Positions 20,256-63,251 of a stretch of DNA of 64,000 nucleotides are shown one piece after another; positions within the stretch are counted from its first letter, which is position 1, and every line of letters begins with the position of its first letter. A program made the position numbers and the translations under genes. The stretch comes from Streptomyces sp. ICC1 (GTDB lineage Bacteria; Actinomycetota; Actinomycetes; Streptomycetales; Streptomycetaceae): positions 2,046,001 through 2,110,000 of the forward strand of contig NZ_CP030287.1 in NCBI RefSeq assembly GCF_003287935.1. The letters run 5' to 3'. The notes beneath the pieces were generated by a model. That model was not told where the DNA came from, made no database searches, and worked only from the letters and a program-made list of their open reading frames with translations.

Positions 20256-20311
20256 AGGGTCCGGAACAGCCCGCGCCGCGAGGCGCGCTCGAAGTGGCTG
20301 TTCCGGACCCT
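20256..20311. terminator. Rho-independent-type terminator after the serS-HAD unit
   Basis: Arms AGGGTCCGGAACAGCC (20256-20271) and GGCTGTTCCGGACCCT (20296-20311) pair exactly over 16 bases. A small inner GC hairpin lies in the loop and CTTTGTTCT follows on the plus strand. It separates the serS-HAD unit from the convergent membrane-protein gene. Confidence 0.85.
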
Positions 20312-20377
20312 CTTTGTTCTCCCCGCACGGCTCACTCTGCCCCTGCCGCACGCCTCGTACCAGTCAATTTCCGTGCC

Positions 20378-20977: not shown

Positions 20978-21131
20978 GTCCTGTCCGGGAGGCGGGGTGA
21001 TGCCTCAAGCCTCGTGCGGCGAAGCCCTCGGAACCATCCGCCGATCAGCAGGTCTCCGGGCCGGCCGGCGCCGGTCCGCCTCTGCCGAACGGCAGATGGC
21101 CCCGGTGGGGGCGGCCTCGTAGGGTCGGGGC

Positions 21132-22118: not shown

Positions 22119-22128
22119 TCATGTCCGA

Positions 22129-23445: not shown

Positions 23446-23504
23446 GTCCCCGATGATGCCGCGCGAACCTGTGCCCCGCCTGGCCGGTGGGCCGGGCGGG
23501 GCAC

Positions 23505-23520
23505 TGTTTCACGTGAAACA
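23505..23520. promoter_or_regulatory. parS (ParB-binding site)
   Basis: Exact TGTTTCACGTGAAACA in the short gap between the ABC permease gene (ends 23549, minus strand) and the rhomboid-like gene start (23445). It may overlap the promoter region of the rhomboid-like gene. Confidence 0.95.
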
Positions 23521-23548
23521 CCCGGCACGGGTGCGGGTGGTTCGTGCC

Positions 23549-24268: not shown

Positions 24269-24282
24269 GGATGCCAGCTCCT

Positions 24283-25194
24283 TCAGGCCGCGACGAGGTA
24301 GGAGAAGACCGACTCGAGGGACTCGTCGGAGGGCGAGACCGTCAGCAGCCGGATGCCGTGCTCGCGGGCGACCCGCGGCAGCAGTTCGGTGAAGCGCCCG
24401 AAGTCGACCGCCTGGATGCGCAGGACGCCCTCCTTCAGGTCGACCTCGATCCCGGCGGTGGACGGGTCGGCGATCAGGGCCGCGGCGAGCACCCGGTCGT
24501 CGGAGGAGCGGACGAGGTAGCGGTGCGGGCGGTCCGTCATCAGGCGGCGGATCTTGCGGAAGTCTCCGGAGGCGGCGTGCCGGCCTGCGACGACCACCTC
24601 GATGTGGGAGGCGAGCTGTTCGACCTCCTCCAGGATGTGCGAGGAGAACAGCACCGTGCGGCCGTCGTCGCCCATCCGCCGCAGCAGGTCCATGAGCTGC
24701 ATGCGCTGGCGCGGGTCCATGCCGTTGAACGGCTCGTCGAGCAGCAGCACGGACGGGTCGTGGACCAGGGCGGAGGCCATCTTCACGCGCTGGCGCATGC
24801 CCTTGGAGTACGTGGAGATCTTGCGGTCCTGCGCGTATTCCATCTCGACCGTGGCCAGGGCCCGCTGGGCGGCGAGCCCGTCGAGCCCGTGCAGCTCGGC
24901 GTTGGCGACGACGAACTCCTTGCCGGTGAGGAAGTCGTACATGGCCTCGCGCTCGGGCACGACACCGATCTGCTTGTAGACCTGCTCGTTGCGCCAGATC
25001 GGGGTGCCGTCGAGGGTGACGGTGCCCGTGGAGGGGGCGAGGAAGCCGCCCATCATGTTGATGAGGGTGGACTTGCCCGCGCCGTTGGGGCCCAGCAGGC
25101 CGGTGACGCCGGGACCGATGCGCATGGTCACGTCGTTGACGGCGACGACGTTCCCGAACCAGCGGGAAGTGTGGTCGATGTCGATGATGGTCAC
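24283..25194 (-). CDS. ABC transporter ATP-binding protein
   Basis: A 303-residue ATPase. Walker A is GPNGAGKST, the signature is YSKGMRQRV, Walker B is VLLLDEPFNGMD and the switch histidine is in FSSHILEEV. The C-terminal 80 residues form the extra domain seen in CcmA-like exporters. GTG 25194 overlaps the stop of the upstream permease gene as GTGA, showing coupling. It pairs with the permease at 23549. Confidence 0.92.
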   Translation of the reverse strand: MTIIDIDHTSRWFGNVVAVNDVTMRIGPGVTGLLGPNGAGKSTLINMMGGFLAPSTGTVTLDGTPIWRNEQVYKQIGVVPEREAMYDFLTGKEFVVANAELHGLDGLAAQRALATVEMEYAQDRKISTYSKGMRQRVKMASALVHDPSVLLLDEPFNGMDPRQRMQLMDLLRRMGDDGRTVLFSSHILEEVEQLASHIEVVVAGRHAASGDFRKIRRLMTDRPHRYLVRSSDDRVLAAALIADPSTAGIEVDLKEGVLRIQAVDFGRFTELLPRVAREHGIRLLTVSPSDESLESVFSYLVAA

Positions 25195-26078
25195 AGCCCG
25201 GCCTTCCGGTAGCGGGCCATCAGGGCGGCGTAGGAGCCGGCGATCAGGCCGAGGATGACGAGCAGGTAGACGGTGCCGGCGGCGGCCGAGGGGGCCTCCT
25301 GGCCGGGGAAGGCGGAGGTGGCGCCGAGGAAGGCGGCCTGGAACCCGTCGATGAGGCTGATCGGGGAGAACAGCCCCAGCCACTGGACGACTCCGGTCGA
25401 TCCGGTGCTGTAGGCGATCCCCTGGACGGCCGTGACCGCGCCGAAGGGGATCAGGAGCACGGCGATGATGGCGGCGACGCCGAAGCCGCGGCGCGGGGTG
25501 AGCGCGGCCATGACCAGGCCGAGGCCGGAGAAGAGGAGCGACAGCAGCAGTACCGACACCAGTCCCTGTCCGAATCCCTTGGTCTGGTCACCGAAGTCGA
25601 ACTTCGCGAGCAGCGAGCCGATGTACATGATCACCAGCGGGGTGGCCGTGAGGATGAAGAGGGCCGAGGCCATGGCGGCGAACTTGGCCACCACGTAGTC
25701 CACGCGCTCGATGGGCCGCGAGAAGTAGAGCGGCACCGTCTTGAAGCGCAGGTCCCGGGAGACCGACTGCGGTGCCTGCGAAGCGAGGTAGAGGCCGATG
25801 ATCACCTGGGTGGTCAGGGCGTACGTCGTGTACTTGATCGGCAGGTCCGTGGAGCCGGGCACGGCGATGGCGATGGCGACGAGGATCAGCGCGGGGACGC
25901 ACATCACCGCGAAGAGCAGCATCGGCAGCACCTTGGACTTGGCCGAGCGGCCGAGTCCGTAGGCACCGCGCAGCGACTGCGCGAACAGCGACTTCCGGGC
26001 GTAGGCGCGGCCGAGCCGGGGGCCGTCGTAGGACCGGTAGCCGATGTTGTGGATCTGGGTCGAGGTGTCAGGCGCCAT
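25191..26078 (-). CDS. ABC transporter permease (ABC-2 type)
   Basis: A 295-residue permease with about six helices (for example LPMLLFAVMCVPALILVAIAIAV and LLLSLLFSGLGLVMAAL) and the region SRDLRFKTVPLYFSRPIERVDYV corresponding to the SRPI motif of its relative at 23549. Its start overlaps the upstream ATPase gene by 11 bases and its stop overlaps the next ATPase gene. Two ATPase/permease pairs are thus fused into one operon and may form one heteromeric exporter. Confidence 0.9.
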   Translation of the reverse strand: MAPDTSTQIHNIGYRSYDGPRLGRAYARKSLFAQSLRGAYGLGRSAKSKVLPMLLFAVMCVPALILVAIAIAVPGSTDLPIKYTTYALTTQVIIGLYLASQAPQSVSRDLRFKTVPLYFSRPIERVDYVVAKFAAMASALFILTATPLVIMYIGSLLAKFDFGDQTKGFGQGLVSVLLLSLLFSGLGLVMAALTPRRGFGVAAIIAVLLIPFGAVTAVQGIAYSTGSTGVVQWLGLFSPISLIDGFQAAFLGATSAFPGQEAPSAAAGTVYLLVILGLIAGSYAALMARYRKAGL

Positions 26079-50091: not shown

Positions 50092-50131
50092 CCCGACAAC
50101 TTCGAACCCGACAGTCGACTTGCCTAATGAA
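50092..50131. repeat. Right terminal repeat of the Tn554-like element
   Basis: Two inverted copies of the subterminal motif, CCCGACAAC (50092-50100) and ACCCGACA (50106-50113), then GCCTAATGAA (50122-50131), which mirrors TTCACTAGGC at the left end. The doubled motif makes the ends asymmetric. Confidence 0.65.
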
Positions 50132-50135
50132 GGTA

Positions 50136-50711
50136 CTGGTTGTCGCCGTGGATGTATCCGACGGGAACCGGCCCGACGTGGCGCAGCTGGGCGGCGTGGT
50201 CGCGGACCAGCTGCTGCTCGCCGTCGGTGAGTCTGTCTCCGGCGCGGGTCAGGTACTTCTCCGCCCCGTCGGCGGCGGCCTCCAGAGAGGCTTCGGCTTC
50301 CACCCGATCGGCACGGCAGAGCTCCCCGGCCTCGTGCAGCCGGGCACACAGCGCCCCAGCTTGCTGGTGGACGGCCCGCCAGTCGCCGGCGGACAGGCTG
50401 AGCGCCTTCGCCGGGGTACCGGGGACCGCGGTGAGCAGCAGGGCCAGGTCCTCGGCCCGGCTGTCGATGAGGCTGGGTGCCCGGCTGTGCCCGAGGGCGG
50501 GGACGACATGCCTGTATGCGCGGGTCTCACGGGTGAAGAACTTCTCGCTCGGCGAGACCTTCACGTACCGGTGCACGCCGTCAGCGCCCTCCACCTCCCA
50601 CACTCGGGAGCGGTCCCAGTCGTGCGAGGCGTCGCGTACGGAGACGATGGACCCGATCCGCTGCTCCGCCCACCCCCGCACCGCCGGCGGCAGTAGCTTC
50701 GGCTGCCTCAT
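50136..50711 (-). pseudogene. N-terminal part of the split APH-family phosphotransferase
   Basis: An ATG at 50711 with AGGAGG 8 bases upstream opens 192 codons of an aminoglycoside-phosphotransferase-like kinase, including a VKVSPSEKFFTRETRAYRHV region (nucleotide-binding Lys and Glu) and LALLLTAVPGTPA (hinge). It ends in the catalytic motif VGYIHGDNQ. The frame then reads YLH and a stop (50124) from transposon DNA. The rest is at 40599-40907. Such kinases modify antibiotics or small metabolites; the substrate is unknown. Confidence 0.88.
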
Positions 50712-50853
50712 CGGACGGACCTCCTACTGGGGCGCTCGGATCCCGAAGGGCCGCATGCAGGGCCGTCGGATGTGGTGAGGTGGGGGAGCAACGAGTTCTC
50801 CTTGCTGGGTCGGCCACGACGGACGACGGTGGGTCGGGCGGGGGTGGAGCCGG

Positions 50854-52743
50854 TCAGCGGTCCTGGGAGAGGGCGAGGAGCTCGGCGAAGGTCCCGCCGC
50901 CGTGGACAAGATCGTCGTAGCGGCCCTGTTCGGAGATCCGACCGTCTTCCAGCACGATGATGTGGTCCGCGATCTTCGTGTTTTCCAGCCGGTGGGTGAC
51001 CATGATCGTGATCCGGTCGGCGGCGATGGCCTTGATCTGCTCGAAGATCAGATGCTCACCACGCGGGTCCATCTGAGAAGTCGGCTCGTCCAAGATCAAC
51101 AACTCGGGCTTGCGGTACAGGGCCCGGGCGCACGCCTCGCGCTGCCACTCCCCGCCGGAGAAAGTGATGCCTCCCCAGATATCGCGGGCCTGGAGGGTGT
51201 TCAGCCCGTTGGGGAGGTCTTCGACGGCTTTGCGCAGGCCGACCGCGTCGATGGCCTCCCATACGGGTCCGTCGTCGTGGGTGTGCGGCTGGCCGAGGGT
51301 GATGTTCTCGCGAACCGGCCACGGCCACTTGGCGAACTCCTGCGGCACCAGGCCGGTACGTGCCCAGACGCTGGCCGGGTCGGTGTCAGCGAGGTCGCTA
51401 CCGTTCCAGGTGACCCTGCCCTTGTCGCAGAGGTAGATACCGGTGATCAGGCGCGACAGGGTCGACTTCCCGGAGCCGTTCGCTCCGACGATTGCGAGGA
51501 TCTGGCCGCGCTCCAGGGTGAGGGAGACGCCGTCGACCGCAGGCTTGTCCTTCCCGGGGTACTGGTAGGAGACCTCTTCGAGCCGGATCTGCTGGACCGA
51601 GCCGGTGATCTCGCCCGGTCCGCGCTGGGGCGTAAGGGCGGCGGCCTCGTCGAGGAAGGACTGCATGTCGGTGAGATAGAGGCTGGTGTGGAAGATGGCG
51701 GCGCCGTTGATGACAACCTGGGACAGGGCGGCGAGTGCGGTCTGGACGGCGATGACGGCCGTGGCGGCGATGGCGGGTTCGATCCGGCCGGTCACGGCGA
51801 GCCAGGCGAGCGCCCCCCACGTTGCGAGGAGGAAGACGCCGCCGGCCAGCGCGGAGAGCAGGGAGATCCGCAAGGTCCGCGGTGCGGCGGCCAGGTTCCG
51901 CCGGTCGCACCGGTCGGACAGGGCCCGGTACCAGTAGACGAGGTAGTCGGTCATCGAGTTGGCACGAACCTCGTCCCCATACTGGGATGCGGTGGCCCAC
52001 CAGCGCATCATCCCGCGCACGTTGCGGTCGGAGATGTTCGAGTAGTGGATCTCGTAGTCGACACGGGCGGTCAGCACAGCTCCGATGCCGGCGGGGAGTA
52101 CGGCGAGGAGCAGCAGGGGCAACATCATGACGTTGAGCAGGGACAGGACGCTGCCGGCGGTGACCAGGCGGATCAGGGAGGACATGAAGCGCTGGGCGTC
52201 GGTGACCATCACGTGGGTGCGGACCACCCCCATCTCGGCCGCCTCCTGCCGGTCGGAGAAGCCGTCCCCGGCGTAGGCCGAGGCCTCGACCCGGCAGACC
52301 GCCTCGACCAGGGCGCTGTCCGTCTCCGAGGTGAGCAGCGGGGTGATCCGTCGGGCGGCGTAGGTGGCCACGGCCCCTGCGACGCGGTTCATCGTGGCGG
52401 CGAGCGCGACCACGAGCAGCGCGGGCAACGCTCCGTGAAGACGGTCGCCGGCACTGCCGGCGCCGAGTACGGGCCCCATCGCGCGGGCGGTGGCGGCCAG
52501 CAGCACCGCGGCGGATACGCCCGTGATGACCTGGCACCCGATCAGGAGCCGTACGGCCTGCCGGTCGGTCTGCCACGACAGCCGGCCGATGCGGGCCAGG
52601 ACCGACGGGAGCGTGGCGCACAGCTTCTGGAAGGAGACCTCGGCGAGTGGGTTGACGGAATACTGCCCGCTGTAGGTGATCTCCGCCGGAGGCGGCGGAG
52701 GCGGAGCACCGGCCGGTTTGCTGTGTGCTTCGGACGTGGTCAT
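50854..52743 (-). CDS. ABC exporter with fused membrane and ATPase domains
   Basis: A 629-residue half-transporter. A Pro-rich N-terminus (AGAPPPPPPAEITYSG) precedes about six membrane helices (residues 65-360) and an ATPase domain with Walker A GANGSGKST, signature FSGGEWQREAC, Walker B LLILDEPTSQMD and switch H in VTHRLENTK. It probably works as a homodimer exporting a small molecule or peptide. It lies upstream of, and on the same strand as, the split phosphotransferase, and could serve the nearby biosynthetic operon. An inverted repeat GCTGTCG/CGACAGC at 52771-52793 sits just before it and may be an operator. Confidence 0.9.
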   Translation of the reverse strand: MTTSEAHSKPAGAPPPPPPAEITYSGQYSVNPLAEVSFQKLCATLPSVLARIGRLSWQTDRQAVRLLIGCQVITGVSAAVLLAATARAMGPVLGAGSAGDRLHGALPALLVVALAATMNRVAGAVATYAARRITPLLTSETDSALVEAVCRVEASAYAGDGFSDRQEAAEMGVVRTHVMVTDAQRFMSSLIRLVTAGSVLSLLNVMMLPLLLLAVLPAGIGAVLTARVDYEIHYSNISDRNVRGMMRWWATASQYGDEVRANSMTDYLVYWYRALSDRCDRRNLAAAPRTLRISLLSALAGGVFLLATWGALAWLAVTGRIEPAIAATAVIAVQTALAALSQVVINGAAIFHTSLYLTDMQSFLDEAAALTPQRGPGEITGSVQQIRLEEVSYQYPGKDKPAVDGVSLTLERGQILAIVGANGSGKSTLSRLITGIYLCDKGRVTWNGSDLADTDPASVWARTGLVPQEFAKWPWPVRENITLGQPHTHDDGPVWEAIDAVGLRKAVEDLPNGLNTLQARDIWGGITFSGGEWQREACARALYRKPELLILDEPTSQMDPRGEHLIFEQIKAIAADRITIMVTHRLENTKIADHIIVLEDGRISEQGRYDDLVHGGGTFAELLALSQDR

Positions 52744-53319: not shown

Positions 53320-53700
53320 GTGAAGACCGAAGCGCCGGTGAGCGACTTCTACTGCAACAAGGTCCTCAGCGGGCTGGTGGAAATCCAGCCGGTGGTCGAG
53401 ACGGAGCGGGTGCTCGCCTTCCACCACACCAACCCGTCGTATCCAGTGCACATCGTGGTGATTCCGAAGGCGCACGTTCCCTCGCTCACGGACCTCGGCG
53501 ACGCGGACCCCGGCTTGGTATACGAAGTGGTCGAGGTGGTCCGTGAAGTCGCGGCCATGGTGGAGAAGGAGCACGGTTCGTGTTCCGTCAACACGAACCT
53601 GGGGCTCTACCAGGAGTCGAAGCACATGCACTGGCACGTGTACTACCGCGGGGAGAGCGAGAGCGAGATCCTCGGCATGTACGGCCACCACGACCGCTGA
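53320..53700 (+). CDS. HIT-family nucleotide hydrolase/transferase
   Basis: A 126-residue HIT protein. The histidine triad reads HMHWHVYY near residues 103-110, preceded by the usual IVVIPKAHVPSL block. HIT enzymes cleave nucleoside phosphoramidates and adenylates, including aminoacyl-adenylates, which is notable next to a synthetase operon. GTG 53320 has AAAGGTG upstream. It ends 2 bases from the convergent MurG-like gene, so the two transcripts overlap. Confidence 0.9.
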   Translation: MKTEAPVSDFYCNKVLSGLVEIQPVVETERVLAFHHTNPSYPVHIVVIPKAHVPSLTDLGDADPGLVYEVVEVVREVAAMVEKEHGSCSVNTNLGLYQESKHMHWHVYYRGESESEILGMYGHHDR

Positions 53701-53702: not shown

Positions 53703-54797
53703 TCAGCGCCGTACAGCGGCTGGCCTTGCAGCGGCCAGGGTCAGCCGGGCAACCGCGGAGGCGGCTTCACGGGCATGGCGTGCCATGTCGTCCGGGTCCG
53801 CCCCGCGCGCGGTTCCCCGGAGCTTGCCGCAGGCCTGTACGAGAGGCTGCCCGTCGGCCAGGGCCTCGTCGGCTACGACGACGCAACGGGCCGGATTCCG
53901 TTCGGCGTACGCGGCGGCGTTTTCGATCTGGTCGCCGCGGCTGACGGACGTGGGCAGCGGCACGAGCACGGCCGGGATGGCGAGAGCTTCGAGTTCGGCG
54001 AGGGTGGTTGCGCCGGCGCGGCCGATGACGGTGTCGGCCAGGTGCAGGGCGTCGTTCATGTCCTGGTGCAGGTATTCGAACTGCCAGTACCCGGCCCGTC
54101 CTTCGAGGCTGGGGTTCAGGTTGCCCTTGCCGCAGATGTGAAGGACCGCGTACTGGTCGCGCAGGGCGTCGAGTTGGGCGCGGACGGCCTTGTTGACGCG
54201 CTGGGAGCCGCTGCTGCCGCAGAAGACGAGCAGCACCCGGGTGCTCCCGGGTACCCCGAGGCGGTTGCGGAGGCCGGCGGGGTCTGCCGTGGTGAGGTCC
54301 GATCGGAGCGGGAGCCCGGTGATCTCCGCCTTGGCGGATAGCCAGCGCGGGGTTTCGGGGGCCGGCGTCGTGCTGAAGCAGACGGTGTCGGCGAGGCGCG
54401 CGAGAATGCGGTTGGCGAGTCCGAGGGAGCGGTCGGACTCGTGGATCACGATGGGGACCTTGCACAGCCAGGCGGCCACGCCGACCGGGACCGACACGTA
54501 CGAGCCCTTGGAGAACAGGGCGTCGGGGCGCTCCGAGCGCATCACGCGCCAGGCGGCGGCCACCCCGCGTGCGACGGTGAGGGGCATGAGGAGGTTGCTC
54601 CACGAGCGGTGGCGCTTCAGCCCGGCGGCGGGCACTGCCCGAAAGGGCAGGCCGGCGCGCTCGGCGTACTCGCTTTCGATGCTGCCGCTGCGGCCGATGA
54701 ACACGAGCTGGGCTCCGGAGGCGGCGAGCTGGTCGGCCACGGCCAGGGCGGGGACGACGTGGCCGGCGCTCGCGCCACCGGTGATAGCGATCTTCAC
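53703..54797 (-). CDS. MurG-like glycosyltransferase (GT28)
   Basis: A 364-residue GT-B enzyme. The N-terminal glycine loop TGGASAGHVVPALAVA matches the TGGGTGGH loop of MurG, with GLPFRAVPAAGLKRH after it. The C-terminal half has VLLVFCGSSGSQRVN and DTVIGRAGATTLAELEALAIPAVLVPLPTS, the sugar-nucleotide site. MurG transfers GlcNAc to lipid I; this paralogue is more divergent, so a secondary-metabolite or cell-wall-variant role is likely. GTG 54797 fits the family start. Residue 4 is a GCU alanine codon, the codon the nearby tRNA can misread. It lies 68 bases downstream of the tRNA. Confidence 0.88.
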   Translation of the reverse strand: MKIAITGGASAGHVVPALAVADQLAASGAQLVFIGRSGSIESEYAERAGLPFRAVPAAGLKRHRSWSNLLMPLTVARGVAAAWRVMRSERPDALFSKGSYVSVPVGVAAWLCKVPIVIHESDRSLGLANRILARLADTVCFSTTPAPETPRWLSAKAEITGLPLRSDLTTADPAGLRNRLGVPGSTRVLLVFCGSSGSQRVNKAVRAQLDALRDQYAVLHICGKGNLNPSLEGRAGYWQFEYLHQDMNDALHLADTVIGRAGATTLAELEALAIPAVLVPLPTSVSRGDQIENAAAYAERNPARCVVVADEALADGQPLVQACGKLRGTARGADPDDMARHAREAASAVARLTLAAARPAAVRR

Positions 54798-54865: not shown

Positions 54866-54940
54866 TGGTCGGGTCGACTGGATTCGAACCAGTTCCTCGA
54901 CAACGCTTTTGCCGTGCTCCACCAGTTGAGCTACGACCCG
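54866..54940 (-). tRNA. tRNA with proline-type acceptor end and alanine anticodon AGC (tRNA-ProA type)
   Basis: The minus strand folds into a full cloverleaf of 75 bases with encoded CCA: acceptor CGGGTCG/CGACCCG, D stem GCTC/GAGC, anticodon stem CGGCA/TGTCG, T arm ACTGG-TTCGAAT-CCAGT. C1:G72 and A73 are proline identity elements of bacterial ProRS; the alanine determinant G3:U70 is absent (G3:C70). The anticodon loop is AAAGCGT, giving anticodon AGC (reads GCU) and A instead of the near-universal U at position 33. It matches the tRNA-ProA reported to insert proline at GCU alanine codons. Confidence 0.9.
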
Positions 54941-54960
54941 TTTGAGTTGCAACGATGGCG

Positions 54961-54990
54961 ACTATATGGCTGGCTATCTCGGCACGTCAA
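54961..54990 (-). promoter_or_regulatory. Housekeeping-type promoter of the unusual tRNA
   Basis: On the minus strand, TTGACG (54985-54990), an 18-base spacer and TATAGT (54961-54966). This is close to the HrdB consensus and places transcription start about 12-16 bases before the tRNA 5' end. The tRNA can therefore be made independently of the upstream operon. Confidence 0.75.
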
Positions 54991-55055
54991 CGGTGGGATG
55001 GGAATTGACTGGCGTGAATGTCGGAGGGTCCTGATAATTCGAGGCAGCCCGAATT

Positions 55056-55088
55056 GGCGTCGCTCGTAATCGGAATTCGAGCGACGCC
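55056..55088. terminator. Hairpin between the ProRS paralogue and its tRNA
   Basis: A perfect 11-base-pair stem, GGCGTCGCTCG (55056-55066) with CGAGCGACGCC (55078-55088), loop TAATCGGAATT, 25 bases after the synthetase stop. It may end the operon transcript or be a processing site. No U-tract follows. Confidence 0.6.
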
Positions 55089-55113
55089 ACGTTCGGTTAG
55101 TGGCCTGTTTGCT

Positions 55114-56781
55114 CTATTGGCGTGTGCTGCAGATTTGGTGAACGGTGCTGGGTTCGGTGGTTGTGGTGCGACCGGTCCAGCGGTTGGTGATCTCGACTTC
55201 GTCGTCGTTGTGTCGGGGGGAGATCAGGGCGTGGTGCGGCAGGCCCAGGAGTCGGGCGTAGCGGAGCTTGTCGCCGGCGGGCAGGTGCCGGTCGTCGATG
55301 AGCAAGCTCACTCCGTGGGTGCGGAGTTGGCGGACGAGCTGGTCGGTGCGTTCGCGCATGGCGGGGAGGTCGGCGCGCAGGACGGTGAGGTGCAGGTCGG
55401 CGGGTCCGGTGCCGGCCTTCCAGCGCAGGCCGTGGTGGTCTCGGTGGATTTCGGCGGTGGTCTGGAGGCAGCGGGTGATGCCGATGCCGGAGCAGGCCAT
55501 CCAGGGCGTCTGGGCGGCGCCGTGCTCGTCGGTGAAGGCCAGGTTCATGGGGGCGGAGTACTGGCGGCCGAGTTCGAAGACATGGGCGACTTCGACCGCG
55601 TGGGTGTCGCTGTACTGGCCCTGGTGGCAGCGCACGCAGGTGGATCCGGGCGTGGCCTGGTGGAGGTCGGTGCCCGAGGGCGTGATGGCCAGCAGGCCGC
55701 GCCCGCCGTCCCAGGACATGGAGGTGCGCAGTCCGTCGGCCCCGTCGGAGATGGCGAACTTCTCCAGGGTGCTGACGGAGGTGTCGAAGAGGAGGACGGT
55801 GCCCGGGGCTCGGGCGGCGGTCCAGGGGGTGAGGGTGCCGGCCGGGGTGCCGTACAGCTCCGGAAGTAGGTCGGGGTCCAGGAGGGTGACGTGGGTGGCG
55901 CCGGTGGCTTCGGCGAGTTTGCGGGCGCTGACCTGGAGGTCGGAGCGGATGGCGACGGCGGTGGGCCGGCGACTGCCGTCGGGGCCGGTCGCGGCGAAGA
56001 CGATGACGTTGACGACGGGTTCCCCCGTGTGGGGTGCGGGCTTGGAGCTGAGGACGGCGGCGTCTCCTCGGTTGCCGCAGTGCCTGCAGGCCAGGATGGT
56101 GCTCTGCCCGCTGTCGCCGAGGAGGAGGTGCTCGGTACTGGGGCCGGCGGAGATGCTGCCCCCGTCGGCGGGGGCTTGGAAAGTGCCGGTCAGGCCCATT
56201 CCGGTGAGGGCGGCCGCGCACGCGTCGTTGAGGAAGCGGGTCGAAGTCCGCATCGCCTCGGGGCTGGCATCGAAGGTGTAGCAGTCGGCCATCGTGAACT
56301 CGCGGGAGCGCATGAGGCCGCCGCGGGGGGAGAGCTCGTCGCGGAACTTGGTGGTGCTGAGGAAGAGGCGGGCGGGCAGATCCCGGAAGGACCGCAGGCG
56401 GTCGCGGACCGTGGCGGTGGCGATCTCCTCGGAGGTCGGCGCCAGGCACATGTCCTCGCCGCTGCGGCTGCGGGAGGTCAGGAGGGCTCCCTCCCGCTGG
56501 TAGGCGTCCCAGCGCCCTGTCTCCTTCCACAGCCTGCTGCTCTGCAGGGTGGGGAAGGAGACCGTGTGGGCGCCGCGTTCCTCGAAGGCCCGGCGGGCGA
56601 TGGAGGACAGGCGGTCGTGAACCCTTAGTCCGAGGGGCAGGAGGGTGAAGACACCGCTGGCGGCTGTGGCGGAGACGAGGCCGAGGGAGTCGAGGAGCTC
56701 CATCGTGGTGGATCCGGGGTCGGCGGCGCGGGGGCGGACCGGAGGCCACAGGGTGCTGGTGTAGAGGGGGGTGTCATGCAC
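55114..56781 (-). CDS. Second prolyl-tRNA synthetase (ProRSx type)
   Basis: A 555-residue bacterial-type class II ProRS. N-terminal TLLPLGLRVHDRL (about 46-58), TxE loop APTSEE (114-119), motif 2 FRDE and RSREFTMADCYTFD (146-171), an insertion (editing-type) region about 195-365, motif 3 GIGITR (432-437), and an anticodon-binding domain (LTVLRADLP, LIDDRHLPAGDKLRYARLLGLP). Being an extra copy outside the housekeeping context and next to a tRNA with mixed identity, it fits ProRSx. GTG 56781 overlaps the upstream GT4 stop by 8 bases, so it is coupled to the operon; a start at 56703 would remove part of the conserved N-terminus. Confidence 0.88.
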   Translation of the reverse strand: MHDTPLYTSTLWPPVRPRAADPGSTTMELLDSLGLVSATAASGVFTLLPLGLRVHDRLSSIARRAFEERGAHTVSFPTLQSSRLWKETGRWDAYQREGALLTSRSRSGEDMCLAPTSEEIATATVRDRLRSFRDLPARLFLSTTKFRDELSPRGGLMRSREFTMADCYTFDASPEAMRTSTRFLNDACAAALTGMGLTGTFQAPADGGSISAGPSTEHLLLGDSGQSTILACRHCGNRGDAAVLSSKPAPHTGEPVVNVIVFAATGPDGSRRPTAVAIRSDLQVSARKLAEATGATHVTLLDPDLLPELYGTPAGTLTPWTAARAPGTVLLFDTSVSTLEKFAISDGADGLRTSMSWDGGRGLLAITPSGTDLHQATPGSTCVRCHQGQYSDTHAVEVAHVFELGRQYSAPMNLAFTDEHGAAQTPWMACSGIGITRCLQTTAEIHRDHHGLRWKAGTGPADLHLTVLRADLPAMRERTDQLVRQLRTHGVSLLIDDRHLPAGDKLRYARLLGLPHHALISPRHNDDEVEITNRWTGRTTTTEPSTVHQICSTRQ

Positions 56782-57883
56782 GGGTTGCTCCGATCACCGT
56801 GTCGGACAGGGCGCCGAGGCGGTCGGCGGTGGCGGCGATGTCGTGCTGGCGGCTGTTGTCGGCGGCGGACTGGCGGAGGATCGGGCGCAGGTGCGGGTTG
56901 GCGGCCACACAGTCGATGACCGCGGCCAGTGCATGGCTGTCACCCGGCGGGTAGGACAGGCCGCCGTGGCCGAGGGTGGCGCCGAGGCCCGGTACGTCGC
57001 TGTAGAGGATCGGGAGGCCGTGGGCCTGGGCTTCGATCGCTACGAGCCCGTACGCCTCCAGGGTGCGGGTCGTGAACACGAAGGCGTCGAAGGCCCGGAA
57101 GCGGGCCCACAGGTCGGCGCGGGGGGCGAAGGGTTCGAACGTGACCCGGTGTGCGAGGCCGTGGTGCTGCACGCGGGCCTGGAGCGCGGGCAGTTCGGGT
57201 CCGCTGCCGATGACGGTGAGGTGGTGCGGCTCCCGGGTGGCGGCGAGCGCGTCGATGGCGGTGATGGTCGACTTGTTGTCGTCCAGGCGCCCGGCGTGCA
57301 GGAGCCGCAGGACGCTGCCGGTGGTGGGCTCCGTGGTGGGGGCCGCAGGGAGCGGGATGCCCCACGGGACGGTGACCAGCCGGTCCGCGTACAGGTTCCC
57401 GGTCAGGGTGTTCACCTGGTCGGCCATGGCCTGGTTGGGGACGGCGACCGCCGTGCTGGCGGCGACGATCTCGTGGAGCACCGTGCGGGCCTGGCCAATC
57501 TCGGTGGCCACGATGATGTCCGTGCCGTGCGCGATCGAGATCAGGGGGATGGCGCCGGCCGCGCGGGCGAAGGCCAGGGCCAGGCCGAAGCCGAGGTGCT
57601 GGGCGTGGATGAGGTCCGGCTCCGCCCGGGTGAGGAGCTGGGCCACCTCGCTGGTCAGGGAGTCGGCGTACCGCTCGAAGCCGGGGCCGTACGGTGCCTT
57701 CTGGGAGGCGAGGGGGACGGTCTCTTCGAAGCGGTGCTTCCAGGTGCCGGAGCCGGGCAACGCGGCGAACGTGGTGTGGAAGCGGTCACTGAGGCGCGGA
57801 TAGGTGTCGTTGCACCAGATAGTCGAGCCGCAGGAGGGCTCCAGCGGCAGGTCGATGCCGGTGAGGATGCGGTGTCGGCTCAC
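56774..57883 (-). CDS. GT4-family glycosyltransferase
   Basis: A 369-residue GT-B enzyme. The C-terminal half has LRLLHAGRLDDNKSTITAID (start of Glycos_transf_1), RVTFEPFAPRADLW and the nucleotide-sugar site LEAYGLVAIEAQAHGLPILYSDVPG. The acceptor domain includes DLIHAQHLGFGLALAFAR. GT4 members include MshA and BshA, which act with PIG-L deacetylases; a PIG-L gene lies two genes upstream. GTG 57883 overlaps the upstream stop as GTGA. Donor and acceptor are unknown. Confidence 0.9.
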   Translation of the reverse strand: MSRHRILTGIDLPLEPSCGSTIWCNDTYPRLSDRFHTTFAALPGSGTWKHRFEETVPLASQKAPYGPGFERYADSLTSEVAQLLTRAEPDLIHAQHLGFGLALAFARAAGAIPLISIAHGTDIIVATEIGQARTVLHEIVAASTAVAVPNQAMADQVNTLTGNLYADRLVTVPWGIPLPAAPTTEPTTGSVLRLLHAGRLDDNKSTITAIDALAATREPHHLTVIGSGPELPALQARVQHHGLAHRVTFEPFAPRADLWARFRAFDAFVFTTRTLEAYGLVAIEAQAHGLPILYSDVPGLGATLGHGGLSYPPGDSHALAAVIDCVAANPHLRPILRQSAADNSRQHDIAATADRLGALSDTVIGATRA

Positions 57884-58614
57884 GCGCTCGCTCCGGTGGA
57901 TGCGGTCGGGAGGTAGGTGTCCAGTCCGGTGCGCAGCATCGCGGCCAGCCCGGCCCAGCCGGTCGCCGCTACCGCGTCGATGAACGAGAGGCAGGGGATG
58001 AAGCCCTGCTGGGGCCATGCCTGTCCGTACTGGGGGTGCCGGTCTGCGAACTCGTTCCAGACCACGGAGATGCCGTGCCCGGCCAGGGCGTCGGTGTCGA
58101 GGTAGCCGCGGGTGCCCGAACCGGCCCACAGCACGTGCTCGTCGGCCTGGGCGGCGATCTGGGCCAGCCGCACCGACTTGCCGCTGTCGGCCGTCGTGTC
58201 CATGTCGGAGGTGAGCCGCAGGCGGGCGTGGGAGCCGAGCGCGGTCGCGATCTGGTTGATGAGGTCGACGTTCAGGTCCAGGAGCCAGCGGTGGCCGCCG
58301 CCGAGGGCGGGACCAAGGACGTTCAGCGCCTCCTCGACGTACGGGGTGCGCGCGTAGGCTAGGCGGACGCGGCGCAGCAGGCTGTCGGGGTCGAAACTGT
58401 CGGCAAGGCGGGTGTCGCGGATCAGCTGGCCCGAGGCGCGGACGACGGGGACCGTGAGCCAGGCCGGCCCGTCGGGGGTCTTGATGCGGTTGCGGTTGAG
58501 GAACCCGCCCTCGGTGTACTGCACGTCGTCGAACAGGGCGACGGTGGTGCAGCCGAGGAGGGCTTCGCAGAAACCCAGCCACGGGGCGAACCCGGGCTGC
58601 TCGATGTAGATCAC
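57880..58614 (-). CDS. WbqC-like family protein
   Basis: A 244-residue protein that starts VIYIEQPGFAPWLGFCEALL and has FDDVQYTEGGFLNRNRIKTPDGPAWLTVPV, both hallmarks of the WbqC family, whose genes sit in O-antigen and secondary-metabolite clusters, probably as acyl- or aminoacyl-transfer-related enzymes (not firmly established). GTG 58614 overlaps the upstream stop by 4 bases and its own stop overlaps the GT4 start. A role in attaching an amino acid or acyl group to the operon's product is possible. Confidence 0.85.
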   Translation of the reverse strand: MIYIEQPGFAPWLGFCEALLGCTTVALFDDVQYTEGGFLNRNRIKTPDGPAWLTVPVVRASGQLIRDTRLADSFDPDSLLRRVRLAYARTPYVEEALNVLGPALGGGHRWLLDLNVDLINQIATALGSHARLRLTSDMDTTADSGKSVRLAQIAAQADEHVLWAGSGTRGYLDTDALAGHGISVVWNEFADRHPQYGQAWPQQGFIPCLSFIDAVAATGWAGLAAMLRTGLDTYLPTASTGASA

Positions 58615-59339
58615 GAAAGCTCCAATCCGAGGGCCGGGTGGGAGAGGGTGAGCAGCGGTGTCTCGAACGCCTCGAAGGAACGGCCCGCCGCAGCGGCGGC
58701 CGGGCGCAGCCGCCACCCGGCGTCGGCGGCGCGGTGGCGGGTGTACTCCTCGCCGAGGTACCAGCGTCCGGCCTGGCTCTGATGCGCTTGCAGGGCCTTG
58801 ATCTTGTCGTCGAGGACATCGGTGATGTCGACGAGGACGGTCGGCGCGAACTGGGATCGCGGTGCGTGGGGTTCGCCGTACAGGACGGTGCGGCACGTGC
58901 TGACCCGGGTGGCCGCGTTCGAGGCCGCCACAGCTACCGCGAGGTGGTCTTGGTGGTCGTTGGCCACCCGTGGGCTGTGGGTGATCAGCGTGGTGCAGCC
59001 GGATCGGACGAGCTCCCCTTCTAGGAGGGAGATCATGTGCCGGTCCGCGGTCAGGGCCCCGTCTTCCAGGCCGAGGCCGGACAGCTCGATACCGGTACCC
59101 GCCCATGCCGCAGCGGATTCGACGGCGCGGTCCTCCGGCCTCAGCCGCCGTCCCGCCTCGCTGTCCGCGACCGAGACGCCGTTCGCGCCGTGGGTGGCGG
59201 TCAGGATGCTGACGCGGGCGCCGGCCTGGCGGAGCCGAAGGAGGGTTCCACCACAGAGCAGTTCCGCGTCGTCGGGGTGGGCCACGACGGCGACCACGTG
59301 CTCGCGCGCATCGCCTTGGGGCCCGGGCACGGCGGTCAC
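58611..59339 (-). CDS. PIG-L family N-acetylglucosamine deacetylase-like protein
   Basis: A 242-residue zinc hydrolase. The signature AHPDDAELLCGGTLLRL is at residues 18-34, with the later zinc histidine in NDHQDHLAVA. Family members (MshB, BshB, LmbE) remove acetyl from GlcNAc conjugates. With the GT4 enzyme next to it, a GlcNAc-conjugate deacetylation step is the natural guess. GTG 59339 overlaps the upstream stop as GTGA. No signal peptide. Confidence 0.92.
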   Translation of the reverse strand: MTAVPGPQGDAREHVVAVVAHPDDAELLCGGTLLRLRQAGARVSILTATHGANGVSVADSEAGRRLRPEDRAVESAAAWAGTGIELSGLGLEDGALTADRHMISLLEGELVRSGCTTLITHSPRVANDHQDHLAVAVAASNAATRVSTCRTVLYGEPHAPRSQFAPTVLVDITDVLDDKIKALQAHQSQAGRWYLGEEYTRHRAADAGWRLRPAAAAAGRSFEAFETPLLTLSHPALGLELS

Positions 59340-59863
59340 CGGTCCTCGAAGTCGCGGTAGGACTGGGAGGGCATGGGCCCGGTGCTGTTCTGGTACTTGC
59401 CGTCGTAGAGGACGATCTCGCCGGTGGTCTCCCAGAAGGTGACCTGGCCGATCGGCATGCCGGGATAGATCAGGACCGGGGCTCCCGAGCAGTGCAGTTG
59501 GAGGGTCAGCTGACCGTAGGACCCGAGATCGATCAGGTCCGCGGTCACATGGACGAACAGTCCCAGGCGCGCGATGGAGGATTTGGCGCGGATGATGGGG
59601 ACCACGGTGTCGCTGCCGATCCGCTCCAGCGTCGGTGCGAGGTAGATGCGGTCCGGGGACAGCACCATTCCGTCCGTGGGGATCGGGTGTACTTCGAAGG
59701 CGTTCTCCCTGGCGCAGTCGAGGACTTCGGCGGTGTACCAGCCGATGGTGTCCCCGAGGTGGAAGTCCAGGCTGTTGGGCTGGATGAGGGTGGGGTCGTA
59801 GGGCGAGACCTTGATCTCGCCGCGTTCGATGCGGGCATGGATCTCGGGGCCGGTGAGGATCAC
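59336..59863 (-). CDS. dCTP deaminase-like protein with altered active site
   Basis: A 175-residue protein with the Dcd trimer fold: QPNSLDFHLGDTI, KSSIARLGLFVHVTADLIDLGS and YPGMPIGQVTF. Compared with E. coli Dcd (GRSSLARLG and VLEFYN), the Arg of GRSS is Lys (residue 94) and the catalytic Glu is Gln (residue 122, TLQLHC). It is therefore probably not a dCTP deaminase and may only bind nucleotide or have new chemistry. GTG 59863 overlaps the stop of its upstream paralogue. Confidence 0.85.
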   Translation of the reverse strand: MILTGPEIHARIERGEIKVSPYDPTLIQPNSLDFHLGDTIGWYTAEVLDCARENAFEVHPIPTDGMVLSPDRIYLAPTLERIGSDTVVPIIRAKSSIARLGLFVHVTADLIDLGSYGQLTLQLHCSGAPVLIYPGMPIGQVTFWETTGEIVLYDGKYQNSTGPMPSQSYRDFEDR

Positions 59864-60402
59864 GCGGCGACCTCCCGTACGTGGGTGCCGGCGGCTGCGT
59901 GGGGCGAACAGGGGGAAGGCTCGCTGAGGGACCCGTAATAGCCGCCATAGGGCACGATCCGGCCCCGAGGCCGCCAGAAACTGACCTGCCCGATCCGCAT
60001 GCCCGCGTACACGCGCAGCGGCTGCACGACGACGATCTCCAGGGTCCACTGGTGGATGGCGCCGAGCTGGCCGAGGTCCGCGGAGACCTGGAGGTAGGTG
60101 CCGAGCCGCCCTATCGAGGAACGGCCGATCAGACTCGTCACGAACTCGGCGCTGCCGATCCGCTCCACCGTCACGCCCAGGTAGAGGGTGCGGGGCTGCA
60201 GGACGTAGCCGCCGGGGCCGATCTCGATGCTCTCGGTCTCAGCTTCGCGGCGCGGGTCTACGGGGCTGCCGACCAGGGTCTTCAGCGTGCTGCCGAGGCG
60301 GTAGTTGTAGCTGTTGGGGTTCAGGAGAGCCGGGTCGAACGGATCGATGGTGATCGCCCCCGACGCGACCGCGTCCCGGACCGCGGGACCGGTGAGGATC
60401 AC
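59860..60402 (-). CDS. dCTP deaminase-like protein, Glu-containing paralogue
   Basis: A 180-residue Dcd-fold protein that starts like its downstream neighbour (ILTGP) and aligns with it without gaps up to residue 40. It keeps GRSSIGRLG (Arg 94) and the catalytic Glu 122 (WTLEIVV), so it may retain deaminase or dUTPase-type activity. A C-terminal tail of about 25 residues (SEPSPCSPHAAAGTHVREVAA) is extra. The two probably arose by tandem duplication and may form a mixed trimer. Overlaps both neighbours. Confidence 0.87.
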   Translation of the reverse strand: MILTGPAVRDAVASGAITIDPFDPALLNPNSYNYRLGSTLKTLVGSPVDPRREAETESIEIGPGGYVLQPRTLYLGVTVERIGSAEFVTSLIGRSSIGRLGTYLQVSADLGQLGAIHQWTLEIVVVQPLRVYAGMRIGQVSFWRPRGRIVPYGGYYGSLSEPSPCSPHAAAGTHVREVAA

Positions 60403-61199
60403 AGGACGCCTCCGACATAGGTCTGCTGCAGGAGCCGCCTCTCGTCCGGGGCGACCGTCTCCTGGCCCAGGCCGAGCGGCATGCGGCCGTGGGCGTAGCG
60501 GTGCTGGTCGAAGACGAGCAGCTGGCCGGGCAGCAGGCGCACCGCGATGCGCTGGTGCTCGACACAGGCGACGAGTCGGCCGAAGGCATCCGCAATGCGC
60601 CGCTGGTCGGCGTCGTTCGCCAGGAGTTCGCCCCGTTCCAGATGCGGCTGCATCTTCGCGGTGAACCGGACCGGCCCTTCCCCGCCGGCCGGAGGAAGGA
60701 CCGCGAACCGCTCCAGGCTGGATCCGACTCCGTGTACGCCCTCGTCGGTGAAGTACGAGTAGACCGGCTCGGACAGCAGCCTGCGGTCAACGTCGGTGAG
60801 GCTCTCGACGGCCGCCCACATGTCGGCCAGGGCCGATGCGCCGCCGCCACGCGGGTCCGAGCGCACGCAGTACAGGGCGATATAGCGGGGCATCAGGGTC
60901 CGGTCGACGAGGTCGACGTGGAGCCGGTTCTCACCCACACCGTGCGTGCGCCCCGGGTCGGCGTCGGTGCGAACGCTCAGCGTGCTCCAGCATCCGTCCT
61001 GCGGGTACACCGCCAGAACCGGGCCCAGGGCGGAGAGCAGGCTGAGCCCCAGCTCCATGTTGAGGGCGTGTGCGGCCGGGTCCTCGAAGGCGATCAGGGC
61101 CCGGCCGTTCCCGGCCCCGGACAGGTGATCGGTGAAGTCCCGCGGAGCCGTCGCGCCCCGCGTCAGGTCTCGGCTCGGAAGAGGGCTGAAGTCGTTCAT
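60399..61199 (-). CDS. TauD/TfdA-like Fe(II)/2-oxoglutarate dioxygenase
   Basis: A 266-residue predicted hydroxylase. The iron ligands are H and D in NRLHVDLVD (about residues 108-110) and H in QHRYAHGRMPLG, followed by the 2-oxoglutarate Arg region (RRLLQQTYVGG). Such enzymes hydroxylate or desaturate small molecules in antibiotic pathways. ATG 61199 overlaps the upstream stop as ATGA; its stop overlaps the next GTG. It probably tailors the operon's product or a nucleoside precursor. Confidence 0.85.
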   Translation of the reverse strand: MNDFSPLPSRDLTRGATAPRDFTDHLSGAGNGRALIAFEDPAAHALNMELGLSLLSALGPVLAVYPQDGCWSTLSVRTDADPGRTHGVGENRLHVDLVDRTLMPRYIALYCVRSDPRGGGASALADMWAAVESLTDVDRRLLSEPVYSYFTDEGVHGVGSSLERFAVLPPAGGEGPVRFTAKMQPHLERGELLANDADQRRIADAFGRLVACVEHQRIAVRLLPGQLLVFDQHRYAHGRMPLGLGQETVAPDERRLLQQTYVGGVL

Positions 61200-62374
61200 G
61201 GGGACGTCTCCTCGGTGAGGCGGGTGAGGATGCCGCGCAGGGTGCACGGCGGGTCGGCCGGCCGGTATGACAGGCCCAGCCGGTCGGCGAGGTAGCGGGT
61301 GGTGGAGACGACGGCCGGTTCTGCCGGCGGCGTCTCGGGGGCGCTCGTCACGTCCTCACCGAGCACGGAGGCCAGGTTGGCCAGAGCCCGCGCGTCCTGC
61401 AGGCCGTCGAGGACGACGATGTCGCTGTCGAAGGGCGCGCAGTTCAGCAGGTCGATACGCAGGACGTCCGCGGGCAGGCCGGTGCGCAGGCTGAAGGTGT
61501 TGACGAGGAAGGCGCCGGCCTTGGTTTCGCCCACGGCTTGTCGCGCGAGGGCACGAGCGGCGTGCTCGCGGTCCGGCAGCGGCATGGGCAGCGTGCCGAC
61601 GCGGTCCGACCCCCAGCGGAGGAAGGCGTCGACATCCTCCGCGAGCCCTTCGGCCGGCTCGGTGCCGGAGCTGAACGTGTCGATCGTGACGCGGTGGGAG
61701 CCCACCTTGTCCAGGCCCAGGCGCAGCAGCCCCATGCCGGTCTCCGGCGCCTTGGCGACGTGCCGGCCGCGGGAGCACCAGTGGGAGGACGGGCTGTGGC
61801 AGTGGCCGGCGATGACCACCGTGAGGGGCCAGTCCTGGTCCTGGTCGGTGATGTCGTGCGCGAACCCGGAGTGGCTGACGCCGACGACGAGGTCCGCACC
61901 GGCCTCCAGGAGCCGGTCCCGCTCTGCCGCGATCAGCTCGGCGGTCGGCTCCGCGTAGGTGAATCCGGACCGCTCCGAGCGCGGGACCGCGTTGAAGGCC
62001 TGCCGGCCGAGGTAGCCGACGATGCCGATGGCCAGCTCGCGGCCGCGCAGCACCAGACCGCTCTCCCACCTCCCACGGAAAGACGCCGGCGGGCGCAGGT
62101 TCGCACAGACCAGGGGAGGGAACAGGTCAGGGCGGTCCAGGCTCATCAGGTCGGCGAGGTCGTGGTTCCCGGGCACGACCGCGTCGTAGTGCTCACGGAG
62201 GATCCGCTCTTCGACCCGGCCCCCGGAGAACTCGTGGAAGGCGTTGCCACCGAAGAAGTCGCCGGCGTCCACGACCAGGGCCCCGGCCTGCCTCCGCTCA
62301 CGCAGGGCGGCCAGCATCTCGGCGCCGTCGGGAACGGAGGAGTGGAAGCAGCCGGTCGCGATCAGCTCTTGCAT
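61196..62374 (-). CDS. Calcineurin-like metallophosphoesterase / 5'-nucleotidase
   Basis: A 392-residue protein with the two-metal phosphoesterase motifs: GDFFGGN (GDxxG-type), VVPGNHDLADL, VGVSHSGFAHD and VIAGHCHSPSSHW (GHxH). A C-terminal domain resembling the 5'-nucleotidase specificity domain follows (about residues 210-390, TKAGAFLVNTFSLRTG). There is no signal peptide, unlike periplasmic UshA, so it acts in the cytoplasm. ATG 62374 has GAGGA upstream. It may dephosphorylate a nucleotide made by the operon. Confidence 0.87.
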   Translation of the reverse strand: MQELIATGCFHSSVPDGAEMLAALRERRQAGALVVDAGDFFGGNAFHEFSGGRVEERILREHYDAVVPGNHDLADLMSLDRPDLFPPLVCANLRPPASFRGRWESGLVLRGRELAIGIVGYLGRQAFNAVPRSERSGFTYAEPTAELIAAERDRLLEAGADLVVGVSHSGFAHDITDQDQDWPLTVVIAGHCHSPSSHWCSRGRHVAKAPETGMGLLRLGLDKVGSHRVTIDTFSSGTEPAEGLAEDVDAFLRWGSDRVGTLPMPLPDREHAARALARQAVGETKAGAFLVNTFSLRTGLPADVLRIDLLNCAPFDSDIVVLDGLQDARALANLASVLGEDVTSAPETPPAEPAVVSTTRYLADRLGLSYRPADPPCTLRGILTRLTEETSP

Positions 62375-62379: not shown

Positions 62380-62985
62380 TCAGCCCCGCTCGATCGCCAC
62401 GACACGAAGAACGGACGGCGCCGACGGCCAGAAGTCGGAGCGGGAAATGCCATCGACCTCCTCCAGCCGAAGGCCGCCGCCTTCCTCGTCGAGCTGCGCC
62501 ATGGTCTGCCGGGTGATCACGACCAGCCCCCGCTCCACCCGCAGCGACGTGAAGACGTGCCGGATCAGAGCTGTGGAGAGGTCGGCGTCGAAGGGCATGA
62601 TCGCCAGGAGGTGCGTCCCGGCAGCCAGGCCCCCGTCCAGGTCGACGGCCCGGACATCGGCGATGGTCACTCGCGTGCCCTCGCCGAAGCCGGAGAGTCG
62701 GCCGGTCAGGTGGGCCCCCAGCCGGTCGTCCTTCTCCACCGCCCACAGGGGGTGCCCGGCACTGGCCGCGGCAAGCGACAGGGTCCCCAGCCCAGCGCCG
62801 ACTTCCAGTACAGGCCGACCCTTGGGGATGGCAGCGGATGCGAGCAAGCGCAGCGCCGCGTCCTCATGGCGCAGGAAGTACTGGCCCAAGTCCGCCCGTG
62901 TGGTGAAGCCCGCCGCTGCGACAGCCTCTGCCGCCGAGGGGGCCGACGGCTCCGCCAGGCCCCGGGCCGGTGCGATCTCGATCAA
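62380..62985 (-). CDS. KsgA/Erm-like SAM-dependent methyltransferase, first gene of the operon
   Basis: A 201-residue methyltransferase. LGQYFLRHEDAALRLL then VLEVGAGLGTLSLAAA (SAM motif I) and WAVEKDD (motif II) resemble rRNA adenine dimethylases, but the NLPY-type catalytic motif is replaced by AIMPFDADL, so the substrate may be different. I chose TTG 62985 because AAGGGA lies 8 bases before it; a TTG at 63054 is another option. It is 5 bases upstream of the phosphoesterase gene. A resistance role by target methylation is possible but unproven. Confidence 0.75.
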   Translation of the reverse strand: MIEIAPARGLAEPSAPSAAEAVAAAGFTTRADLGQYFLRHEDAALRLLASAAIPKGRPVLEVGAGLGTLSLAAASAGHPLWAVEKDDRLGAHLTGRLSGFGEGTRVTIADVRAVDLDGGLAAGTHLLAIMPFDADLSTALIRHVFTSLRVERGLVVITRQTMAQLDEEGGGLRLEEVDGISRSDFWPSAPSVLRVVAIERG

Positions 62986-63251
62986 CTCGGTTGTCCCTTC
63001 AAGGAGCAGCGCAAGGACACGCCGCGAGGGGGAACTGCATGGAGGGAATGGCAAGGCCGGATACGGGGAGAGGCCGGTCTGGGCCTCGTGCCGCTTGGCG
63101 TGTGCGTCACAGGAAACCGGTCCCGCAGGCTTTGCGGGAGGCGAACTAGGGGGGCGAACTCACCACGAACCAATGCGCCCCCAGCACCTGGCGCCCTACG
63201 CTCAAATCCACCTTCGAAGCACGGGCGCGACACTCGAACAGGGAGGGACCC
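62986..63251. other. Divergent promoter region of the ProRSx operon and its regulator
   Basis: A 266-base gene-free region between the methyltransferase and the plus-strand regulator. It contains a small hairpin, TCCCGCA-GGCTT-TGCGGGA (about 63120-63138), which on the minus strand would lie in the operon leader. The promoters are not obvious by eye. Confidence 0.5.

Follow-up and report, generated by a model that had tools for sequence, protein, structure and literature searches.

The 64,000 nucleotides of Streptomyces sp. ICC1 analysed here (contig NZ_CP030287.1, positions 2,046,001 to 2,110,000; hereafter the window) contain a gene for a second bacterial-type prolyl-tRNA synthetase (ProRS), ProRSx, followed by a tRNA gene with proline acceptor identity and the alanine anticodon AGC. 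We report that a conserved, biosynthesis-like operon surrounds this pair and consider what it may do there. ProRSx with tRNA-ProA, -ProT or -ProN is reportedly a family, described by Vargas-Rodriguez in 2021 and Schuntermann in 2023. The pair in the window consists of:

54866..54940, minus strand: tRNA-ProA, anticodon AGC, with C1:G72, A73, A33, A15, A48, G21 and an encoded CCA
54961..54990, minus strand: promoter-like element of the tRNA, TTGACG-18-TATAGT
55114..56781, minus strand: ProRSx, 555 amino acids, GTG start, recognised with Pfam; its start overlaps the GT4 stop, and the Lys motif of the editing domain is Asn

The single tRNA that ARAGORN found in the window (54866-54940, minus strand, anticodon AGC) scored 47.8 bits against the Rfam tRNA model (gathering score 29). 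The bases C1:G72, G3:C70, A73, A15, G21, A33, A34 and the encoded CCA were read from the sequence, and A48 was assigned under the predicted cloverleaf; the G3:C70 pair is therefore not the G3:U70 of tRNA-Ala. The open reading frame at 55114-56781, whose stop lies 173 nucleotides from the tRNA start, combines a class II core, a YbaK-type editing domain and an anticodon-binding domain (Pfam), and its matches to the NCBIfam proline--tRNA ligase models fall below the curated cut-offs. The protein is 65% identical to P0042 of S. turgidiscabies and 88% identical to a homologue in Streptomyces sp. IBSNAI002, and shares 34% identity, over aligned pieces, with the host's own bacterial-type ProRS. Besides ProRSx the host genome (one contig, 9.03 Mb) encodes two canonical ProRSs, a bacterial-type enzyme at 3.74 Mb (L008, 565 amino acids; NF006625, 738 bits, above cut-off) and a type-I enzyme at 5.33 Mb (L009, 470 amino acids; TIGR00408, 470 bits, above cut-off); as a query, ProRSx scores 114 bits on the housekeeping ProRS of this genome (G000).

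A sequence-only reading had named a second bacterial-type ProRS and a following tRNA with C1:G72, A73 and AGC, had assigned them to ProRSx/tRNA-ProA, and had expected the housekeeping proS elsewhere in the genome. The first point is borne out by ARAGORN, Rfam, Pfam and the sequence itself, the second fits the comparison with the published family (A33, A34, A15, A48, G21; 65% identity to P0042), and L008 and L009 show that ProRSx is not the sole ProRS. The similarities thus support the window pair as a member of the known ProRSx/tRNA-ProX family, with which it shares a bacterial-type ProRS isoform adjoining a tRNA that has a proline acceptor and a non-proline anticodon, the bases A33, A34, A15, A48 and G21, and co-existing canonical ProRSs. 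An excerpt of the 2024 review lists A33, A15-A48 and G21 as marks of tRNA-ProX (PMC11415595). What sets the present pair apart from that description is its place in an 11-gene operon, the content of which is constant whichever anticodon is present, together with Asn where the editing site would have its Lys motif.

The conserved block surrounding the pair contains the following further genes, some of whose starts we chose ourselves:

53320..53700, plus strand: HIT-domain protein, convergent, closing the conserved block
53703..54794, minus strand: MurG-like glycosyltransferase of family GT28, lying downstream of the tRNA (our choice of start)
56774..57883, minus strand: glycosyltransferase of family GT4 with weak likeness to MshA/BshA (our choice of start)
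57880..58614, minus strand: WbqC-family protein, 244 amino acids, a putative candidate for an acyl-transfer or ligase step
58611..59330, minus strand: deacetylase of the PIG-L type with weak likeness to BshB1 (our choice of start)
59336..59863, minus strand: Dcd2, dCTP-deaminase-like, with Gln in 10/10 operons where the aligned residue is Glu
59860..60402, minus strand: Dcd1, dCTP-deaminase-like, aligned Glu kept
60399..61199, minus strand: TauD/clavaminate-synthase-like oxygenase (start set at a downstream ATG)
61196..62374, minus strand: calcineurin-like metallophosphoesterase (start chosen by us)
62380..63054, minus strand: KsgA/Erm-like (RrnaAD) methyltransferase, in 10/10 ProRSx operons, not found in the L160 operon described below

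The operon comprises 11 protein genes and the tRNA, tightly packed in the order methyltransferase, phosphoesterase, TauD, Dcd1, Dcd2, PIG-L, WbqC, GT4, ProRSx, tRNA, GT28 and convergent HIT. This gene order is identical in all ten intact ProRSx loci (the window, the plasmid locus L101, L102-L106 and L108-L110), which came from searches with ProRSx of genus genomes, of the genus of genome G538 and of plasmids; because the arrangement recurs in every intact locus fetched, chance is no explanation for the pair. On L101 (NZ_CP108096), an annotated plasmid, the pair is flanked by the window's neighbours in unchanged order. When all loci were compared with one another, no reading frame outside the block occurred in more than four of the ten others; one of these shared frames, from window position 63252 on, probably encodes a regulator similar to the XRE gene annotated in L101 (median identity 29%). 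With the starts we chose, the reading frames from the phosphoesterase to ProRSx overlap by 4-8 bases, except at Dcd2/PIG-L, and L101 as annotated has overlaps of the same kind. Such start/stop overlaps therefore argue for a single transcript. Past the HIT gene, genes for an ABC transporter and a short APH-like protein at 50124-52743 fall outside the conserved set, and an ABC relative (32%) was found in L101 only. Downstream of the operon in L101 (NBC_00239 plasmid, 19169-25833) lie two radical SAM genes, an LD-carboxypeptidase gene and a second gene related to aminoacyl-tRNA synthetases (amino acid--tRNA ligase-related).

The pair occurs patchily. ProRSx (E <= 1e-60) occurs in seven of 392 genus genomes, intact in six and broken in one, and operon-type WbqC (E <= 1e-35) occurs in 6/392, namely the same six with intact ProRSx; the two genus draws were taken as the same 392 genomes, since the handles shown agree. 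A second genus draw for WbqC returned 4/392, all previously found. WbqC was also detected in 3/70 genomes of the G538 genus (two with ProRSx, one without), in 1/35 of the G487 genus and in 27/296 class-wide, at 139 bits or less apart from the window; a scan of viral contigs found none. Of 12 plasmid records matched by ProRSx, one is itself a ProRSx. In a scan of genome contigs, the best 80 of 175 relatives were all 26-33% identical over their best segment, and no ProRSx was among them. L111 (G463, in the G538 genus) holds a ProRS relative with 31% identity and 207 bits, versus 114 for the G000 housekeeping enzyme, and no other operon proteins and no tRNA were found within its 19 kb. P0079 and P0081 are ProRSx relatives that lack the editing domain when aligned, as does P0080 by length and Pfam only; P0078 (S. 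goshikiensis), tried as a shortened ProRSx type, proved frame-shifted and was not counted. The published host species also appear to carry operon genes, judging from matched search-list records, the DNA itself not having been seen: S. turgidiscabies has both ProRSx (P0042) and WbqC (P0096), with agreeing longest contig (10438753 bases) and contig count, and S. ipomoeae has ProRSx (P0029) and PIG-L (P0213), both on contigs of 13608 bases. The plant association suggested by the sequence-only reading finds little footing here, as family matches include Nocardia, Kitasatospora, a Pseudonocardiaceae metagenome-assembled genome and many Streptomyces. Therefore, given its patchy occurrence (intact in 6/392 genus genomes) and broad host list, the pair says little about lifestyle.

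The anticodon differs between operons. Five of the ten intact operons have AGC and five AGU; with the broken locus L107 included, 11 tRNAs could be compared, six with AGC (window, L101, L103, L104, L106 and L107) and five with AGU. A15, A33 and A34 are present in all 11 and G21 in nine, the tRNAs of L109 and L110 having A21 and G8, and an apparent extra base in the T stem was read by eye in those of L103, L104 and L106. Upstream of the tRNA, regions are poorly conserved apart from a TTGAC box in 10/10 intact operons, with a TAnnnT hexamer counted by eye 17-18 bases past it; in the window the upstream region has one promoter-like site, compared with 0.1 in shuffles. A ProRSx tree splits AGC from AGU operons (support 0.974), as does a concatenation of nine operon proteins (0.948), and the WbqC and GT28 trees do not. 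The ProRSx tree is in line with the ProRSx/anticodon co-evolution mentioned for the family in an excerpt of PMC11415595, and the split softens the idea that the anticodon is irrelevant. The claim of the sequence-only reading that the pair forms a dedicated, stand-alone system for reading GCU as proline thus sits poorly with its embedding in a conserved biosynthesis-like operon, half of whose intact copies carry AGU.

In one locus the operon exists without the pair. L160, from genome G557 of the same genus as G538, has the phosphoesterase (split over two frames in that assembly), oxygenase, Dcd1, Dcd2, PIG-L, WbqC, GT4, GT28 and HIT genes in operon order, and the slot between GT4 and GT28 is filled by an FGE-sulfatase-type protein (PF03781, 3.6e-29) in place of ProRSx and the tRNA. 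No tRNA and no methyltransferase match was found in L160, and a ProRSx search of G557 returned matches of housekeeping strength only, the best at 112 bits. On thin evidence, such a slot pattern would be expected of a tailoring module that can be exchanged, and the KsgA-like methyltransferase may belong with the pair; that this enzyme might act on the tRNA is speculation. In a WbqC tree, L160 falls within a clade (support 0.996) of which 0/9 members lie on a contig with ProRSx, versus 31/71 overall; these same-contig counts come from matching records between search lists, not from DNA, so that a missing match is no proof of absence, and for two of the nine the contig is not long enough for ProRSx presence to be judged. 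By the same record matching, six of the nine WbqC contigs also appear in the PIG-L list. L107 (G057, about 7035-11074) is a decaying copy of the operon, with ProRSx in two pieces and GT4 in fragments, in which GT28, HIT and an AGC tRNA remain; the genes upstream of GT4 are absent from the stretch fetched, and the tRNA lacks an encoded CCA.

From the enzyme families we infer that the operon makes a small molecule. GT4 and PIG-L weakly resemble mycothiol and bacillithiol enzymes, far below the family cut-offs, and among solved structures the oxygenase is nearest, again weakly, to Lys 3-hydroxylase, clavaminate synthase and Asn oxygenase. Dcd1 keeps the aligned Glu of dCTP deaminases, which we take to be the catalytic residue, and Dcd2, with Gln there in all ten operons, is perhaps an altered or catalytically inactive partner. 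The ProRSx editing domain has Asn in 10/10 operon copies where canonical ProRS has Lys, as have the remoter homologues P0062, P0065 and P0073; this comparison was made by motif, MAFFT having left the stretch unaligned column for column, and the Lys presumably has a functional role. The operon shares with mycothiol and bacillithiol logic (GT4, PIG-L, amino-acid ligase) weak GT4 and PIG-L relatives in one operon, but no MshC or BshC was recognised in it, and it has extra deaminases, an oxygenase and GT28. Six annotated plasmid operons (L149-L154) likewise contain Dcd genes in pairs, with a glycosyltransferase, methyltransferase or metallophosphoesterase gene close by, although no ProRSx, WbqC or PIG-L is annotated in them and several of their genes are just 'hypothetical protein'. 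They are perhaps a wider uncharacterised gene-cluster family; their hosts are Streptomyces, Nonomuraea, Nocardiopsis and Rhizobium, and NUDIX genes also lie nearby.

By analogy, the ascamycin cluster may offer the closest logic to the role we propose. According to an excerpt of PMC12945691, it differs from the nucleocidin cluster by the extra genes acmD-F, among them those for an AlaRS and an AlaRS-like transferase, which handle the charging and transfer of alanine. Both AcmD/AcmF and the pair in the window place an additional class II synthetase inside a cluster with nucleoside-type genes, and in both cases a sister cluster does without it. In contrast, no AcmF-like truncated synthetase was recognised in the window operon, which has a dedicated tRNA gene, none being mentioned for ascamycin in that excerpt (PMC12945691). 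Excerpts of four papers on ProRSx/tRNA-ProX, three of them reviews (PMC11415595, PMC10057733, PMC9437257, PMC10365949), make no mention of the operon described here.

Codon use gave no sign that GCU is read as proline, as the sequence-only reading had proposed, in the operon genes, to which these tests apply rather than to the proteome. Two short pieces, TauD of L105 (31 amino acids) and GT28 of L104 (6 amino acids), were left out of the recoding tests and counted in the avoidance test, and the latter was also left out of the GT28 tree. GCT makes up 121/1941 Ala codons in AGC operons and 112/2034 in AGU operons (p 0.34), and within AGC operons it was not rarer at invariant Ala sites (29/456) than at variable ones (92/1485; p 0.91). 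Proline stands opposite GCT in 35/567 aligned cells of AGC operons (6.2%), versus 338/8833 (3.8%) for other Ala codons (p 0.01), but the AGU control shows the same excess (29/480, 6.0%, versus 357/8981; p 0.03), which therefore probably reflects the single-step change between GCT and CCT. The equal excess in the control speaks against GCT recoding inside the operon. Aligned cells are not independent of one another in any of these recoding tests, those for ACT included. ACT was not avoided in AGU operons either (54/1089 Thr codons, compared with 38/1059 in AGC operons; p 0.14). Mistranslation in the host is neither shown nor excluded.

Our preferred explanation, held tentatively and with doubt slightly outweighing belief, is that the pair is an operon-bound proline-charging module for biosynthesis, in which prolyl-tRNA donates its prolyl group in a tRNA-dependent step. 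The operon would build its product from nucleotide and amino-sugar parts: the glycosyltransferases would assemble a sugar unit, PIG-L would free an amine, and ProRSx would charge the dedicated tRNA-ProX, which would then donate the prolyl group, with WbqC as the first candidate for the transfer and ProRSx itself as the second. A stricter form of this proposal, of which we are less confident, is that the pair is private and largely withdrawn from decoding, feeding prolyl groups to an unrecognised enzyme that uses aminoacyl-tRNA, and that it forms an exchangeable module whose place is elsewhere taken by the FGE-type protein. We favour a biosynthetic role because all ten loci share the operon, WbqC co-occurs and the frames overlap; because AGC and AGU operons are equal in content and L160 swaps the pair for an FGE-type gene; because L107 has ProRSx and GT4 in pieces and, in the stretch fetched, none of the genes upstream of them; and because AGC operons show no GCU avoidance or recoding and ascamycin provides a precedent. 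A tRNA acting as an amino-acid carrier also fits the odd A33/A15/A48 body and a third anticodon base that varies between otherwise identical operons. Reading GCU as proline would then be a side activity, and mistranslation in E. coli, as published, may be real yet not the selected function.

Several observations weigh against a biosynthetic role. No aminoacyl-tRNA transferase domain (GNAT/Fem, CDPS, LanB/PEARL, truncated synthetase, AcmF-like or SbzA-like) was found by Pfam in the 11 operon proteins, and since no known fold of this kind was recognised, the prolyl-transfer step is one that we infer. No solved relative of WbqC was found by sequence, and the presence of WbqC in the operon lacking ProRSx weakens the idea that it is a proline-specific transferase; that operon is itself a single locus with DNA. 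The tRNA has traits expected of a decoding tRNA, namely a minimum-energy fold predicted as a cloverleaf in 8/11 cases, an encoded CCA in 9/11 and probably, from the upstream motifs, its own promoter inside the operon, and ProRSx probably still reads the anticodon, since its tree groups by anticodon. Finally, proline stands opposite ACT in 12/218 cells of AGU operons (5.5%), versus 143/4923 for other Thr codons (p 0.04), and the AGC control (1/182 versus 140/4951; p 0.06) does not cancel this excess; ACT in AGU operons also tends to be rarer at invariant Thr sites (9/293) than at variable ones (45/796; p 0.085). The ACT excess is weak and leans towards recoding, and because of the control result we lowered the biosynthetic reading slightly and raised mistranslation slightly.

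These same traits, the retained anticodon, the mostly encoded CCA, the promoter-like element, the anticodon grouping of the ProRSx tree and the ACT counts, are what speaks for selected mistranslation, in which GCU (or ACU) would be read as proline to diversify the proteome under stress and the pair would be merely co-regulated with the operon. Indeed, excerpts of four papers state that this type of pair inserts proline at alanine codons in E. coli (PMC11415595, PMC10057733, PMC9437257, PMC10365949), and family members active there are associated with carbenicillin tolerance (PMC10365949, PMC11415595, likewise excerpts), which again counts against the proline-charging module. We nonetheless consider selected mistranslation unlikely, although worth serious attention: an invariant biosynthesis-like operon surrounds the pair in all ten intact loci, an unrelated enzyme gene fills its place in L160, GCT is equally common at invariant and variable Ala sites with as much proline opposite it in control as in test operons, and eight of the twelve ACT/Pro cells, which are not independent, fall in two columns near the N-terminal end of TauD, whose starts are unsure. 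Self-resistance, with ProRSx and its tRNA as an insensitive back-up for a ProRS or for proline tRNAs poisoned by the operon product, strikes us as distinctly improbable. According to the same excerpt (PMC12945691), the extra AlaRS AcmD indeed withstands ascamycin better than the canonical enzyme does, and ProRSx is divergent from the host bacterial-type ProRS (34%), but proline codons cannot be served in place of tRNA-Pro by a tRNA whose anticodon is for Ala or Thr, which leaves the tRNA half without an explanation. Least probable of all is a defence or nucleotide-pool system on mobile DNA that joins dCTP deaminases to a toxic mistranslating tRNA; the patchy occurrence with one plasmid-borne case, the dCTP-deaminase homologues and a GT4-conflict Pfam match would suit it, but PIG-L, WbqC, GT28 and the oxygenase better fit biosynthesis, and we set it aside on a single weak PADLOC match (mad2, to the methyltransferase) among ten of the 11 operon proteins (HIT excluded).

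Excerpts of reviews from 2022, 2023 and 2024 describe the native role of ProRSx/tRNA-ProX as unknown or open (PMC9437257, PMC10057733, PMC11415595). If the pair is regularly part of one biosynthetic operon, and swappable within it, this question becomes directly testable. The proline-charging module, if real, would also caution against reading the native function of such pairs from mistranslation seen in an E. coli expression host, and a new class of enzyme that uses aminoacyl-tRNA might come to light with it.

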